Source of the DNA: Rhodoplanes serenus
GTDB taxonomy: Bacteria > Pseudomonadota > Alphaproteobacteria > Rhizobiales > Xanthobacteraceae
Assembly (NCBI GenBank): GCA_945893145.1
Contig: CAMDDZ010000016.1
Location: 1-64,000, forward strand
DNA: 64,000 nucleotides
Direction: 5' to 3'
Shown here: piece by piece, positions 7,378-14,456 of the stretch
Numbering within the stretch: the stretch's first letter is position 1
Layout of the letters: every line of letters starts with the position of its first letter
Program-made: the position numbers and the translations under genes
Notes under the pieces: model-generated
What the model saw: the letters and a program-made list of their open reading frames with translations, nothing else
What the model was told of the DNA's origin: nothing
Database searches by the model: none

Positions 7378-7884
7378 ATGAGTGCGCTGGTACGCGTTCC
7401 GGTTGGCGTGGTCGTGGAGCGACGCAAGGCGGTGTCGCCCTGGATTGATTTTACTTGGCGGCCGGTCGCTGTTCTCCCTGGAGAACCGCAAGCAAGCGCC
7501 TGGACGGTGCTCAGCGAGAACGCGGAAATCACGGTATTTTATGCCGGTCGAGCAGAGGTGGGGTTGTACGCCAGCGATACTTCAAACTACCGGGATAACC
7601 TGTCGACCGGAGATCCGAAGCTGTGGGTGGTGTTGCGCCCGACCGATGCGCAGCCACCGTTCGAAGTCGTTTGTGTCACCGCTGATGGCTCTGAGGGCGA
7701 AGGTTTCACCGCGGCCGGCAACGACATCGTCGAAGATGTGCCGATGCCGAAGCCGATCTTGGATGTGGTTGATGCCTTCATCGCCGAGCACCACGTCGAG
7801 CAACAATTCTACAAACGCAAACGCAATCGCGCGGACCCGGAGGCTCTGGGCCGCCGTGGCCGTGTGGACAAGGACAGCGAATGA
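7378..7884 (+). CDS. DUF3305 domain protein
   Basis: VPVGVVVERRKAVSPWIDFTWRPVAVLPG...; immediately precedes DUF3306 gene as in other FDH loci. Confidence 0.75.
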   Translation: MSALVRVPVGVVVERRKAVSPWIDFTWRPVAVLPGEPQASAWTVLSENAEITVFYAGRAEVGLYASDTSNYRDNLSTGDPKLWVVLRPTDAQPPFEVVCVTADGSEGEGFTAAGNDIVEDVPMPKPILDVVDAFIAEHHVEQQFYKRKRNRADPEALGRRGRVDKDSE

Positions 7885-8612
7885 GCGAGCCGGAAAACTT
7901 CCTGGCGCGCTGGTCACGCCGTAAACAGGAGGCGGAACACGAGGCCGACCAGCCGAGTCATTCGGCCGGCGATGAGAGCGCGCCGGAGACTGAACCCCAG
8001 CCTTCTGCAGAATTGGAAACATCCGCAAGCAAAACCGCGCACGACGACAAGGTGCCATCCGAGGTCGATCTGTCGAGCCTGCCGCCGGTCGAATCAATCG
8101 GTGTCGGCACGGACATCCGGGCGTTTCTGCAGAAAGGCGTTCCGCTCGAACTGAGCCGTGCGGCGCTTCGACGCGCGTGGAGTGCAGATCCCACGATCCG
8201 CGACTTCATCGGCATCGCCGAGAACCAGTGGGACTTCGCCACCGGCAGTGACCTTCCAGGCTTTGGCCCACTGGAAGCGTCCGACGACGTGCGCCGGATG
8301 GTCGCGGAATTGTTCCAGGGGAGCGTCAAGCCGCCGGTCGCCGAGCCAGCGTATCGCGCTCCGGACCTGCCGGCAGAGGAGCAAGCTCAAACCGCTCAGG
8401 ACGCCCATGCTTTGGCGGCGCCGACGCAGGACGAGACGCTGCGCGATTCGTCAAAATCCGAACCGCAAGAGTTACAACCTGCCATCGCGTCGATGACCAC
8501 TAGTGATCCTGCCCACAGCCAAGACGAAAATGTTGCGCCGCAGCAAAACGCAAAGCATCCGGACAGTGTTGAGCCGACGAAGCGCAGTCATGGTGGTGCA
8601 CTGCCGCAATAG
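7881..8612 (+). CDS. DUF3306 domain protein
   Basis: MSEPENFLARWSRRKQEAE...LRRAWSADPTIRDFIGIAENQWDF; 4-nt overlap with DUF3305 gene. Confidence 0.8.
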   Translation: MSEPENFLARWSRRKQEAEHEADQPSHSAGDESAPETEPQPSAELETSASKTAHDDKVPSEVDLSSLPPVESIGVGTDIRAFLQKGVPLELSRAALRRAWSADPTIRDFIGIAENQWDFATGSDLPGFGPLEASDDVRRMVAELFQGSVKPPVAEPAYRAPDLPAEEQAQTAQDAHALAAPTQDETLRDSSKSEPQELQPAIASMTTSDPAHSQDENVAPQQNAKHPDSVEPTKRSHGGALPQ

Positions 8613-8724
8613 TGGGCGGGTATAGGCTGCGTCTATAGGTCTATTGCTACGCAATTGCGCGGAGATTACAGTTTCGAACTATTCTTATCGGCATGGGCGT
8701 GCCGAAACTCTGAGCAATTTCGAA

Positions 8725-9498
8725 ATGCGGGATCTTGGTCTGCAAGAAGCAATTCGCGTCGCTGGCAGCGTCAGCGAATTGGCGCGCCGGATCGGCATCT
8801 CGCAGCCATCGGTTTCGAGTTGGGATCGCATTCCCGCGGAGCGCGTGCTCACGGTCGAGAGCGCGACTGGCGTCAACCGTGCCGTCCTGCGACCGGACCT
8901 GTTCGGAACAGAGCCCGCCGGCGATGTCGACGAGATCGATGTTGCGCGCGCTCAGGAATATACCCTGCTGTCCGTGCTGCTGGCGCGGACGCCGGATGCA
9001 GCCCTGATCGAGAAGCTCTCGAAGCTTCGCGGCGATCCGAGCCCGCTCGGTATCGCGCACGCGGCGCTCGCCGAGGCGGCGTCCCAGACATCGGTCGAGC
9101 GCGTTGAGCGCGAGTACTTCGATCTTTTCATCGGGCTCGGACGCGGCGAGTTGTTGCCCTACGGCTCCTACTACCTCACGGGCTTCCTGCATGAGCGGCC
9201 GCTCGCGCGTCTGCGCGAGGATCTCCATGCGCTCGGTATCCAGCGAGTCGAAGACGAATTCGAGCCGGAAGATCATGCCGCGATCCTCTGCGAGATCATG
9301 GCGGGTTTGGCATTGGGCCGCTTCAGTGCACCGGCCGGGAGCGATCAAAAAGTTTTCAAAAGGCATTTGGCGCCGTGGATCGGGCGCTTCTTCGCCGATC
9401 TCGAGCGCGTGGACGCGGCGAAGTTCTATCGCCATGTCGGCACGCTCGGACGCGTATTCATCGACATCGAGACCGAGGCCTTTGCGCTGCCATCGTAA
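8725..9498 (+). CDS. TorD/DmsD-family molecular chaperone with N-terminal Cro/YdaS-like helix-turn-helix
   Basis: N-term LQEAIRVAGSVSELARRIGISQPSVSSWDRIPAERVLTVESATGVNRAVLRPDLF (HTH); C-term EYFDLFIGLGRGELLPYGSYYLTGFLHERPLARLREDL (TorD signature). Confidence 0.85.
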   Translation: MRDLGLQEAIRVAGSVSELARRIGISQPSVSSWDRIPAERVLTVESATGVNRAVLRPDLFGTEPAGDVDEIDVARAQEYTLLSVLLARTPDAALIEKLSKLRGDPSPLGIAHAALAEAASQTSVERVEREYFDLFIGLGRGELLPYGSYYLTGFLHERPLARLREDLHALGIQRVEDEFEPEDHAAILCEIMAGLALGRFSAPAGSDQKVFKRHLAPWIGRFFADLERVDAAKFYRHVGTLGRVFIDIETEAFALPS

Positions 9499-9760: not shown

Positions 9761-12739
9761 GTGCTGATCAAGAGAACAGAACGTCAGGCACGTCGCGGCA
9801 CGCTCGCCGCCGCGCTGTCAAACCAATCCGCCGGAACTCTCGACCGCCGCACATTCTTGCGCCGGTCCGGCCTTACGGTCGGCGGCCTCGCGGCCGTCGG
9901 CGCGTTGCCGCTGACCAGCGTGCGCAAGGCCGAAGCCTTCGGCAGCAATCCTGGCGCAGGCGCCACGATCCGCAAGAACATCTGCACGCATTGCTCCGTC
10001 GGCTGCACTGTCATCGCCGAAGTGTCGAATGGTGTATGGGTCGGTCAGGAGCCGGGCTGGGATAGCCCGATCAGCCGCGGATCGCATTGCGCCAAGGGCG
10101 CCGCGACCCGCGAACTGGTGCATGGCGACCGCCGCCTGCGCTATCCGATGAAGCTCGTCGACGGCAAGTGGACCCGTATTTCGTGGGACGTCGCGATCAA
10201 CGAGATCGGCGACAAGCTCACGGAAATCCGCGGCAAGTCGGGCGCGGACTCGGTGTATTGGCTGGGCTCCGCCAAGTTCACCAATGAAGGGGCCTATCTC
10301 AATCGCAAGCTCGCGGCGTTCTGGGGAACCAACAACTCGGACCACCAGGCGCGCATCTGCCACTCGACCACCGTCGCCGGCGTAGCCAACACCTGGGGCT
10401 ACGGCGCGATGACGAATAGCTACACCGACATCCGCAACGCCAAAACGATCGTCATCATGGGCGGTAACCCCGCCGAGGCGCATCCGGTGTCGTTGCAGCA
10501 CGTGCTGGAAGGCAAAGAATCGCAGCGCGCAAATATGGTCGTGATCGATCCGCGCATGACCCGGACCGCGGCCCATGCCACAGAATATGTGCGAATTCGG
10601 TCCGGCACCGACATCCCGGTGATCTACGGGATGCTGTGGCATGTCTTCAAGAACGGTTGGGAGGACAAGGAGTTTATCGAGCAGCGCGTGTACGGCATGG
10701 ACGACATCCGCAAGGAGGTCGCGAAATATACGCCTGAAGAGGTCGAACGCATTTCCGGCGTTCCGGGCGCTCAGCTCGAGCGCGTCGCCAAGATGTTCGC
10801 GACCGAGAAGCCCTCGACCCTGATTTGGTGCATGGGCGCGACCCAGCATACGGTCGGCACCGCGAACGTGCGCGCGTTCTGCATCGCGCTGCTCGCCACC
10901 GGCAACGTTGGCAAGCCAGGCACCGGCGCCAACATCTTCCGCGGCCACACCAACGTGCAGGGCGCGACCGACCTCGGCCTCGATATCGTGACGCTGCCGC
11001 TTTACTACGGCCTGGTCGAAGGCGCCTGGCGGCACTGGTCGCGCGTCTGGGAGGTCGACTACCAGTGGTTTGTCGATCGCTTCGACAAAGCGACCGCGGC
11101 GGACGGCAAAGTCACCCATACGATGAACACACCGGGTATTCCCTCGACCCGATGGTTCGACGCGACGCTGTACGAAAAGAAGGACGTGTCGCAGAAAGAC
11201 AACATCAAGTGCATGTTCGTCATGGGTCACGGCGGCAATACCGTGACTCGCATGCCCAAGGCGCAAGAGGGCATCGAGAAGCTCGACTTGCTGGTGGTCG
11301 CCGATCCGCATCCGACCACCTGGGCGGCGCTGGCCCCCAACCGCAAGAACAACACTTACCTGCTGCCGATCGCGACCAGCTACGAGACCTCTGGGTCGCG
11401 TACGGCGTCCAATCGCGCGATCCAGTGGGGCGAGCAGATCGTCAAGCCGATCTTCGAGTCGAAAGACGACAACGAGGTGATGTATCTCCTCGCCAAGAAG
11501 CTCGGCTTCGCCGATCAGATGTTCAAGAACATCAAGGTCGAGAACAACGTGCCGGTGGCTGAGGACATCCTCCGCGAGATCAACCGCGGCGGCTGGTCGA
11601 CTGGCTACTGCGGCCAATCGCCGGAGCGGCTGAAGTCGCATATGGCGAACCAAAAAGACTTCGACATGCTCACTCAGAAGGCCGCGGTCGGTCCCAACAA
11701 GGGCGATTACTACGGTCTGCCGTGGCCGTGTTGGGGGACCCCGGAGTTCAAGCACCCGGGCACACCGCTGCTCTACAACACCACCCTTTCGATCAAGGAA
11801 GGCGGCGGCACGTTCCGTGCCCGGTTCGGCCTTGAGCGCGAGGAGACACTCCCCGACGGCACCAAGCGCACCGTCAGCCTGCTTGGCAATGGCTATTACT
11901 CCAAGGACTCCGAGATCAAGGACGGCTACCCGGAGTTCACCCTGGCGGTGCTGAAAAAGCTCGGCTGGGACAAAGATCTGACCGAGGCGGAACTGGCGGT
12001 GATCAACAAGATCAATCCGACCACACCCGACGCGGTATCCTGGGCGATCGACCTGTCGGGCGGCATCCAGCGCGTGGCGATCGAGCACGGCTGCGTCCCG
12101 TACGGCAATGGCAAGGCGCGGGCGAATGCCTTCGGATTGCCTGATGCTATCCCGACGCACCGCGAGCCGATCTACACGCCGCGGCCCGAACTCGTCGCCA
12201 AGTACCCGACGCTGCCGAGCCGGCGTGAGTTCCGCATGCCGAACGTTGGTTTCGACGTGCAGAAGGCGGCGGTGGAGAAGGGGATCGCTAAAGCGTTCCC
12301 GCTGATCCTCACCTCCGGCCGGCTGGTCGAGTACGAAGGCGGCGGCGAAGAGACGCGATCCAACAAGTGGCTCGCCGAGCTGCAGCAAGACATGTTCATC
12401 GAGATCAATCCGGCGGACGCGACCGAGCGGGGCATCAAGGACGGTGCCTGGGTTTGGGTCACGGGTGCCGAGCTCGACTCCAAGGCGCGCATGAAGGCGC
12501 TCGTCACTGAGCGTGTCGGCAAGGGCGTGACCTGGTGTCCGTTCCACTTTGCTGGCTGGTTCCAGGGCGTCGATCAGCGCGGGAACTATCCGGGTGGGAT
12601 GGACTCCAACGGCAAGCGATACGGCACCGATCCGATCGTGCTGGGCGAGAGCGTCAACGCTCTCACCACCTACGGCTTCGATCCGGTGACCGGCATGCAA
12701 GAACCCAAAGCGACCCTCTGTCAGGTCAGAGCGGCATAA
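9761..12739 (+). CDS. fdhA: formate dehydrogenase major (alpha) subunit, molybdo/tungsto-bis-MGD, Cys-type
   Basis: Tat signal RRTFLRRSG; NICTHCSVGC 4Fe-4S motif; QARICHSTTVAGVANTWGYGAMTNS active-site region with Cys where E. coli FdnG has Sec; GTG start after AGGAGG. Confidence 0.95.
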   Translation: MLIKRTERQARRGTLAAALSNQSAGTLDRRTFLRRSGLTVGGLAAVGALPLTSVRKAEAFGSNPGAGATIRKNICTHCSVGCTVIAEVSNGVWVGQEPGWDSPISRGSHCAKGAATRELVHGDRRLRYPMKLVDGKWTRISWDVAINEIGDKLTEIRGKSGADSVYWLGSAKFTNEGAYLNRKLAAFWGTNNSDHQARICHSTTVAGVANTWGYGAMTNSYTDIRNAKTIVIMGGNPAEAHPVSLQHVLEGKESQRANMVVIDPRMTRTAAHATEYVRIRSGTDIPVIYGMLWHVFKNGWEDKEFIEQRVYGMDDIRKEVAKYTPEEVERISGVPGAQLERVAKMFATEKPSTLIWCMGATQHTVGTANVRAFCIALLATGNVGKPGTGANIFRGHTNVQGATDLGLDIVTLPLYYGLVEGAWRHWSRVWEVDYQWFVDRFDKATAADGKVTHTMNTPGIPSTRWFDATLYEKKDVSQKDNIKCMFVMGHGGNTVTRMPKAQEGIEKLDLLVVADPHPTTWAALAPNRKNNTYLLPIATSYETSGSRTASNRAIQWGEQIVKPIFESKDDNEVMYLLAKKLGFADQMFKNIKVENNVPVAEDILREINRGGWSTGYCGQSPERLKSHMANQKDFDMLTQKAAVGPNKGDYYGLPWPCWGTPEFKHPGTPLLYNTTLSIKEGGGTFRARFGLEREETLPDGTKRTVSLLGNGYYSKDSEIKDGYPEFTLAVLKKLGWDKDLTEAELAVINKINPTTPDAVSWAIDLSGGIQRVAIEHGCVPYGNGKARANAFGLPDAIPTHREPIYTPRPELVAKYPTLPSRREFRMPNVGFDVQKAAVEKGIAKAFPLILTSGRLVEYEGGGEETRSNKWLAELQQDMFIEINPADATERGIKDGAWVWVTGAELDSKARMKALVTERVGKGVTWCPFHFAGWFQGVDQRGNYPGGMDSNGKRYGTDPIVLGESVNALTTYGFDPVTGMQEPKATLCQVRAA

Positions 12740-12751
12740 GGAGCAACGACC

Positions 12752-13348
12752 ATGGCCCGTATGAAATTTCTCTGCGACGCCGATCGTTGCATCGAATGCA
12801 ACGCGTGCGTCACCGCCTGCAAGAACGAGCACGAGGTACCGTGGGGCATCAACCGCCGGCGCGTCGTCACCATCAATGACGGCAAGCCGGGCGAGCGCTC
12901 GGTCTCGATGGCCTGCATGCACTGCACCGACGCGCCTTGCGCGGCGGTCTGCCCGGTGAACTGCTTTTACACCACCGCCGACGCGGTGGTGCTGCACTCC
13001 AAGGACCTCTGCATCGGCTGCGGCTACTGCTTCTATGCGTGCCCGTTCGGCGCGCCGCAGTATCCGAAGGTCGGCAACTTCGGCTCGCGCGGCAAGATGG
13101 ACAAGTGCACATACTGTGCAGGCGGGCCCGAGGCGGACCACTCCAAGGAAGAGTACGAGAAGTACGGCTCGAACCGGCTGGCCGAGGGCAAGCTCCCGCT
13201 CTGCGCGGAGATGTGCTCGACCAAGTCGCTGCTGGCCGGCGACGGCGAGATCATCGCCCAGATCTACAAGGAGCGCGTGGTCCGGCGCGGCTACAGCTCC
13301 GGCGCTTGGGGTTGGAAGACGGCTTACAAAGAGACCATCGCGACCTAA
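12752..13348 (+). CDS. fdhB: formate dehydrogenase iron-sulfur (beta) subunit
   Basis: CIECNACVTACKNEHEVPWGINRR, CMHCTDAPCAAVCPV, CIGCGYCFYACPFGAPQ motifs. Confidence 0.93.
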   Translation: MARMKFLCDADRCIECNACVTACKNEHEVPWGINRRRVVTINDGKPGERSVSMACMHCTDAPCAAVCPVNCFYTTADAVVLHSKDLCIGCGYCFYACPFGAPQYPKVGNFGSRGKMDKCTYCAGGPEADHSKEEYEKYGSNRLAEGKLPLCAEMCSTKSLLAGDGEIIAQIYKERVVRRGYSSGAWGWKTAYKETIAT

Positions 13349-13427: not shown

Positions 13428-14456
13428 ATGGCGAGATTGCTTGCGCACGCTCGTTTCATCATCGGCGCGCTGGCGCTCATGTTTGTCGTGGCGATGGCGA
13501 TGCCAACGGCTGCGCAGCAGCGCAATCCCGATAACTCGGTCAACCCGACCGCGAGCTCGGTGAAGGAGGACCAACTCCTCCAGCAGATGCGCATCATCAA
13601 CGGCCGGGGCTCCATACCCGACGCCAAGTCCTACAATCTCGAGCAGCCGGCTGGGCGCGACTGGCGCCAGTTTCACGACGTCACGTTGCATTGGATCGGC
13701 GCCATCGCGATCATCGGTATGCTCGCGGCGCTTGTGCTGTTCTACTTGATCCGCGGCATGGTGCGCATCCAGGCGGGGCGTTCGGGCCGCACGCTGGTGC
13801 GCTTCAACGCATTCGAGCGGTTCGTGCATTGGATGACGGCGTCCTGCTTCATTGTCCTTGCTGTCACCGGACTGAACATCACCTTCGGCAAGACGTTGCT
13901 GTTGCCTTGGATGGGACCGGAGATGTTCAGCGGCTGGTCGCAGTGGGGTAAGTACGCCCACAACTACCTGAGCTTCCCGTTCACGCTCGGCGTGGTGCTG
14001 ATCCTGCTGATATGGATCGCCGGCAATATCCCGAACAGCATCGATCTGCAGTGGATCAAGCGCGGCGGCGGTATCGTCGGCAACGACCATCCACCGGCGT
14101 ATCGCTTCAATGCCGGCCAGAAAATGATCTACTGGATCGTCGTGCTCGGTGGTGGTGCGGTTGCGGCGAGCGGCTATCTGCTGATGTTCCCGTTCTACGT
14201 CACCGACATTGCGGGGATGCAACTTTCCCAGATCGTCCATGGCACGGTCGCGGTGCTGTTCGTCGCTGCCATGCTGGCGCACATCTACATCGGTACGATC
14301 GGCATGGAAGGCGCCTTCGAAGCCATGGCGACGGGCGAGGTGGACCTCAACTGGGCGAAGCAGCACCACTCGCTATGGCTCGAAAAGGAGCAGGCCCGCA
14401 CTGGTCCGAATGAATCGGAAAGCCAGGCGCGGGCGGCGGCGACACCCGCCGAGTAA
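13428..14456 (+). CDS. fdhC: formate dehydrogenase cytochrome b556 (gamma) subunit
   Basis: Signal peptide plus membrane cytochrome b region RFNAFERFVHWMTASCFIVLAVTGLNITFGK...GTVAVLFVAAMLAHIYIGTIGMEGAFEAM. Confidence 0.92.
   Translation: MARLLAHARFIIGALALMFVVAMAMPTAAQQRNPDNSVNPTASSVKEDQLLQQMRIINGRGSIPDAKSYNLEQPAGRDWRQFHDVTLHWIGAIAIIGMLAALVLFYLIRGMVRIQAGRSGRTLVRFNAFERFVHWMTASCFIVLAVTGLNITFGKTLLLPWMGPEMFSGWSQWGKYAHNYLSFPFTLGVVLILLIWIAGNIPNSIDLQWIKRGGGIVGNDHPPAYRFNAGQKMIYWIVVLGGGAVAASGYLLMFPFYVTDIAGMQLSQIVHGTVAVLFVAAMLAHIYIGTIGMEGAFEAMATGEVDLNWAKQHHSLWLEKEQARTGPNESESQARAAATPAE

Follow-up and report, generated by a model that had tools for sequence, protein, structure and literature searches.

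Beyond ModE, little is understood of how the synthesis of molybdoenzymes is matched to the supply of cofactor. In ModE, which regulates molybdenum genes, a winged helix-turn-helix (HTH) is fused to a molbindin domain that binds molybdate directly. The locus considered here lies in a stretch of 64,000 nucleotides from Rhodoplanes serenus (the window) and raises the question of why a TorD-type chaperone, expected to handle both apo-enzyme and cofactor, should carry a DNA-reading domain for which both an operator and a specificity residue can be predicted. The answer that we consider likely, on comparative sequence grounds, is that this protein, HTH-TorD, is a BirA-like maturation regulator that would autoregulate torD-TAT-fdhABC through a site of the form ATAG-N7-CTAT.

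HTH-TorD is encoded on the forward strand by a single open frame that runs from an ATG at 8725 to a TAA at 9498 (stop included) and specifies 257 amino acids. Residues 6-62 (8740..8910) match the YdaS family (Pfam PF15943, E 6.8e-15, 55.1 bits against a curated cut-off of 30) and also P22_Cro (PF14549, E 2.5e-7), and residues 106-224 (9040..9396) match the Nitrate_red_del/TorD family (PF02613, E 3.2e-29, 102.2 bits against a curated cut-off of 22.2), the TorD/NarJ-type fold itself being wider than the Pfam span and extending from about residue 70 to 257. A sequence search of the PDB returns the Cro protein of Xylella (3bd1, 1.3e-8), DmsD (3e-5) and TorD (1n1c, 1.5e-4), Xylella Cro and E. coli DmsD being the nearest solved structures. 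The AlphaFold2 model (mean pLDDT 85) combines an all-helical TorD body with a compact HTH (H16-23/H27-31), for which pLDDT is about 90; its Foldseek matches are DmsD/YcdY (target-normalised TM 0.63-0.76) and Cro 3bd1 (0.78). Membership of PF02613 is thus backed by both score and fold, and the preliminary description, which had read an HTH and a TorD domain in one frame, is borne out by Pfam, by the PDB matches and by the model, with the HTH profile well above its threshold.

The same description had allowed that the HTH might come from a mis-called start. The N-terminal MRD...HTH segment is, however, conserved as protein sequence among full-length relatives that are as little as about 55% identical, all with the same start, and therefore neither start nor fusion is an annotation error; a start-codon artefact is ruled out. 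Such full-length homologues occur in about 100 of 300 genomes of the host's family, and also elsewhere in Alphaproteobacteria, in other families and orders; the named carriers include Bradyrhizobium, Nitrobacter, Afipia, Mesorhizobium, Chelativorans and Salinarimonas. Across the phylum, TorD proteins of the fdh type are usually about 200-240 amino acids long and lack the HTH, as do those of a few members of the host's own family, and the frames upstream of the HTH-less torD homologues that were inspected encode no HTH. Judged from these unfused relatives, the HTH is an addition to TorD. Its phage relatives are 43-49% identical to it. Three further HTH-TorD proteins (L182, L183 and L184) have another HTH subtype, with an insertion and a VKQANVWHW-like helix, and neither an ATAG nor an ATAA site; they represent either a separate specificity or a separate fusion. 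Other combinations were also seen. In L181 a YdaS-like HTH shares its frame with an NAD(P)H-hydrate repair-like protein, in L178-L180 an HTH is joined to a C-terminal domain of unknown type, and one locus (L051, 6536-7633, reverse strand) has DUF3306 and TorD in a single ORF of 365 amino acids, which hints that DUF3306 works with the chaperone. A literature search for TorD-HTH, TorD-YdaS, MobB-HTH or a TorD-linked regulator of Bradyrhizobium returned nothing relevant.

The neighbourhood of HTH-TorD is that of a formate dehydrogenase. Upstream of it are, in order, genes for an LplA-like protein, DUF6505, DUF6352, DUF3305 (7378..7884) and DUF3306 (7881..8612), the last two assigned by Pfam, and downstream of it are genes for the formate dehydrogenase region Tat target (TIGR02811, 9544..9750), the molybdopterin (bis-MGD) catalytic subunit FdhA with its Tat signal (9761..12739), the 4Fe-4S subunit FdhB (12752..13348, assigned from sequence and position) and the cytochrome b561-type subunit FdhC (13428..14456; PF01292, 3.8e-26), with all genes from DUF3305 onwards on the forward strand. 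The TorD domain would serve the enzyme encoded just downstream, FdhA being its predicted client. A gap of 112 bp that follows the DUF3306 gene holds the predicted operator and promoter.

The operator, ATAGGCTGCGTCTAT (8622..8636), is a 15-bp palindrome found by comparison, to which the HTH would bind, presumably as a dimer. It is the sole ATAG-N7-CTAT in the 64 kb, where 0.08 would be expected. Of 138 distinct loci (type-1 fusions with sufficient DNA upstream, each HTH sequence taken once), 125 have an exact match, about 70-150 bp before the fusion gene and typically as CATAGCCTnnAGGCTATTG, and when the symmetric variant ATAA-N7-TTAT is included the number rises to 134 of 138. The half-sites are 7 bp apart in 99 loci, and 6 or 8 bp apart in none. 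By contrast, the site is found within 500 bp of none of 39 unfused torD genes (Fisher P 3e-28, a test that ignores relatedness); three box-bearing torD loci, L081, L098 and L139, were confirmed as fused by full-length matches. Over the whole genome of the host (5.49 Mb) there are 13 such boxes, the same number as in a reversed control, and apart from those at fdh and fds none is near a recognised molybdenum gene. Boxes that the genomes G171 and G290 share within a coding region, and others that adjoin unrelated genes, were dismissed as chance. A second element, GAA-N3-TTC, is present in the window as GAACTATTC (8676..8684, forward strand), near the predicted start site; it occurs in 43 of 136 fused loci, where 2.3 would be expected, with a strong preference for a spacing of 3, and in 2 of 39 unfused loci.

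The recognition helix of the HTH (QPSVS in the window, residues 27-31, 8803..8817) is near invariant among homologues, and its main variation is accompanied by a change of operator. Most helices read QPSxS, and 11 distinct fusions read QPAxS, with Ala at residue 29; in nine of these 11 the site is ATAA-N7-TTAT, both halves of which differ from the usual sequence, and of the remaining two, one has a mixed operator and the other keeps the usual one. ATAA-N7-TTAT is not found with any QPS or QPT protein, so that the counts are Ala 9 and Ser/Thr 0 for ATAA/TTAT, and Ala 1 and Ser/Thr 124 for ATAG/CTAT (Fisher P 3e-13, relatedness ignored). When operator type is mapped on the best tree built from the TorD domain alone, four changes are seen, always in rows with Ala; only one pair of these changes is independent on strongly supported branches, the others being on weak ones. 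An autogenous operator that is predicted to be specific, depends on the HTH and covaries with it also agrees with the assignment to PF15943. The preliminary description had gone on to propose DNA binding and control of fdh, and here too it is strongly supported, as a prediction from sequence, by an operator found only with the HTH and by this covariation; the architecture and the predicted regulation are the parts of its interpretation that stand. We consider DNA recognition and autoregulation by HTH-TorD well supported as predictions.

Two other readings of the same evidence are less satisfactory. The HTH might be a module for dimerisation or protein contacts that has lost DNA binding, and Cro-type domains are indeed expected to dimerise; this is very improbable for a recognition helix that is near invariant and covaries with an operator specific to the HTH. 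It is also improbable, although less so, that the HTH is a passenger and that the reader of the box is a LysR protein, either FdsR or one of the OxyR type that reads ATAG-N7-CTAT. The core ATAG-N7-CTAT does fit the T-N11-A sites of LysR proteins, and a motif that contains this core, GATAGA-N5-TCTATC, is found at fds promoters that adjoin a divergent LysR gene, even in genomes without the HTH. The torD box is nevertheless not independent of the fusion (0 of 39 unfused loci), and it persists in HTH-bearing genomes where the fds box or fds itself is missing, namely those of Bradyrhizobium type (G033) and Afipia type (G034) and G055 and G711. One genome (G175) has the LysR gene and the fds box, yet its unfused torD has no box; position 5 is A in 0 of 99 torD boxes against 12 of 15 fds boxes, and the torD operator covaries with residue 29 of the HTH. 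Boxes at fds in three genomes (G000, G233 and G290) had made these genes a candidate part of the HTH regulon, a possibility that was rejected, since these boxes go with the divergent LysR gene, are present in genomes that lack the HTH and have another motif (GATAGA-N5-TCTATC). In the window's own genome the fds box, GATAGAGTTTTTCTATC (L142 1501-1515; G000:C15:28733), lies between the LysR gene and fdsGB, and is probably an FdsR operator of this motif.

If HTH-TorD is a regulator, the position of its site may indicate the direction of control. In the window, 15 bp separate the operator centre from the start of a putative -35 (TTGCTA, 8644..8649, forward strand), which is followed, after a 17-bp spacer, by a putative -10 (TACAGT, 8667..8672); both were recognised by comparison with other loci, and a generic promoter scan of the window found nothing. 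Among those loci, the distance from the operator centre downstream to the start of TTGAC is 7 bp in 33 and 17-18 bp in 22, values that differ by about one helical turn, and a mirrored placement is not seen in any of these approximately 55 loci. The -10 elements that follow TTGAC are weak, and in some loci of Bradyrhizobium or Afipia type no adjoining -35 is seen. A centre near -43 is the slot that lambda CI occupies at PRM. The operator thus often lies just upstream of the -35 and on one side only, as for activators of the lambda CI type, and its position therefore favours activation in part of the family, from promoters that are themselves predicted. The alternative is that the fusion acts as phage Cro proteins do, repressing its own promoter at high concentration with no input from maturation. 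YdaS of CP-933P behaves in this way at its own promoter at higher concentration (PMC8630535), and the operator of HTH-TorD likewise adjoins its own gene. We nonetheless find this reading doubtful, given a box that lies off the promoter core, upstream of the -35, in about 55 loci and is never mirrored, and given the repeated fusion of the HTH to molybdenum-maturation proteins, which suggests an input from the partner.

The spacing of the genes points to how the arrangement arose. In fused loci the gap between DUF3306 and the fusion gene has a median of 118 bp and contains operator and promoter, whereas in 4 of 7 unfused loci examined in the host's family, as read from the sequences, torD overlaps DUF3306 by 4 bp; it therefore appears that the three elements, HTH, promoter and operator, were gained, or lost, as one cassette, which is probably of prophage cro origin.

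A similar HTH is found on a second protein. In nine genomes (L042-L050) a YdaS-type HTH, 55-70% identical, is fused to MobB, the MobB part matching PF03205 at about 1e-50 in the three fusions scanned, and at least two genomes have both HTH-TorD and HTH-MobB. In the HTH tree, supported branches force three label changes for the MobB fusions, which may equal one gain and two losses; the HTH has apparently been joined to MobB more than once, as far as the tree can tell. Two of these HTHs (L043 and L049) nest within those of Bradyrhizobium/Afipia-type TorD fusions and keep a look-alike of the TorD operator and promoter, and the other seven of the nine HTH-MobB genes have no operator directly upstream. 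MobB acts in bis-MGD synthesis, and to our knowledge it has no role in binding Tat peptides. The presence of the same HTH on MobB therefore points to the state of the cofactor or of maturation as the signal, and not to the Tat peptide alone.

It is accordingly a reasonable possibility, if short of probable, that these HTH proteins read bis-MGD/GTP, and through it molybdenum or tungsten supply, by way of TorD or MobB, rather than occupancy by apo-enzyme or Tat peptide. The two fused proteins share only the bis-MGD pathway. Where the surroundings of HTH-MobB were examined, they contain MoeA, MobA, FdhD and a tungstate-type ABC transporter, and an HTH-type box lies upstream of the transporter operon in two genomes (L047 12871 and L042 12765). 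Only these two tup boxes were found, though, one exact and one with a single mismatch, and the regions examined in two further genomes have no matching box. TorD of E. coli contacts MobA and Moco as well as the apo-enzyme (PMC10609526, PMC9103625), and expression of E. coli torCAD depends on bis-MGD by an unexplained route (PMC10845959); the contact with MobA and Moco and this dependence fit a cofactor signal. TorD also binds signal peptides, however, so that occupancy of the chaperone may yet be the signal.

The maturation regulator that we favour has parallels among known systems, BirA being the nearest in mechanism. Like BirA, HTH-TorD is a maturation factor with an added N-terminal HTH and has HTH-less relatives (Group I in the case of BirA), and the regulation exerted by BirA responds to the state of cofactor and acceptor proteins (PMC4016012), as it would here. 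BirA itself is a winged HTH joined to a biotin ligase, with no homology to HTH-TorD, in which Pfam finds no BPL domain; it represses cofactor synthesis, whereas the target of HTH-TorD would be the client enzyme's own operon, with a placement that suggests activation in part of the family. HTH-TorD would thus resemble BirA in its mode of action without belonging to the same family. ModE resembles it in the fusion of an HTH to a molybdenum-related sensor and is not homologous. With the chaperones of the TorD/DmsD/NarJ type (REMPs) it shares the TorD fold, the EPEDH motif and an adjoining Tat-exported bis-MGD enzyme, but the well-studied members have no DNA-binding domain, and none is mentioned in a survey of the NarJ subfamily (PMC4464133). 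With the YdaS/Cro proteins of lambdoid prophages (PMC8630535) it shares the domain family and an autogenous operator, predicted in its own case; the phage proteins differ in serving a lysis-lysogeny switch, in being unfused to a metabolic protein and in their operators. A functional parallel to the present proposal is feedback by apo-TorC and TorS on torCAD of E. coli, where the maturation state of a molybdenum respiratory system controls its own operon in a manner dependent on bis-MGD, albeit through a two-component system and not a DNA-binding chaperone (PMC10845959).

In the proposed mechanism, binding of the HTH at its own operator would autoregulate torD-TAT-fdhABC, and engagement of TorD with apo-FdhA, with the bis-MGD/GTP state or with both would change dimerisation or DNA binding of the HTH, so that fdh transcription would follow maturation capacity. 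Where a clade has the site directly against the -35, the free or cofactor-loaded protein would most likely activate; where the site is placed elsewhere, the protein may repress. More tentatively, a cassette derived from cro, consisting of promoter, operator and in-frame HTH, may have been attached more than once to TorD and MobB and so have turned them into direct transcriptional sensors of the balance between bis-MGD and apo-enzyme. The question is directly testable in culturable strains of Bradyrhizobium, Afipia or Nitrobacter. The comparison suggests a cell that would make formate dehydrogenase according to the progress of its assembly, by what looks like a phage-type regulator captured with its operator as a unit by metabolic proteins; if this is true, such sensor fusions would regulate molybdoenzymes as a class of their own, apart from ModE and from two-component systems.
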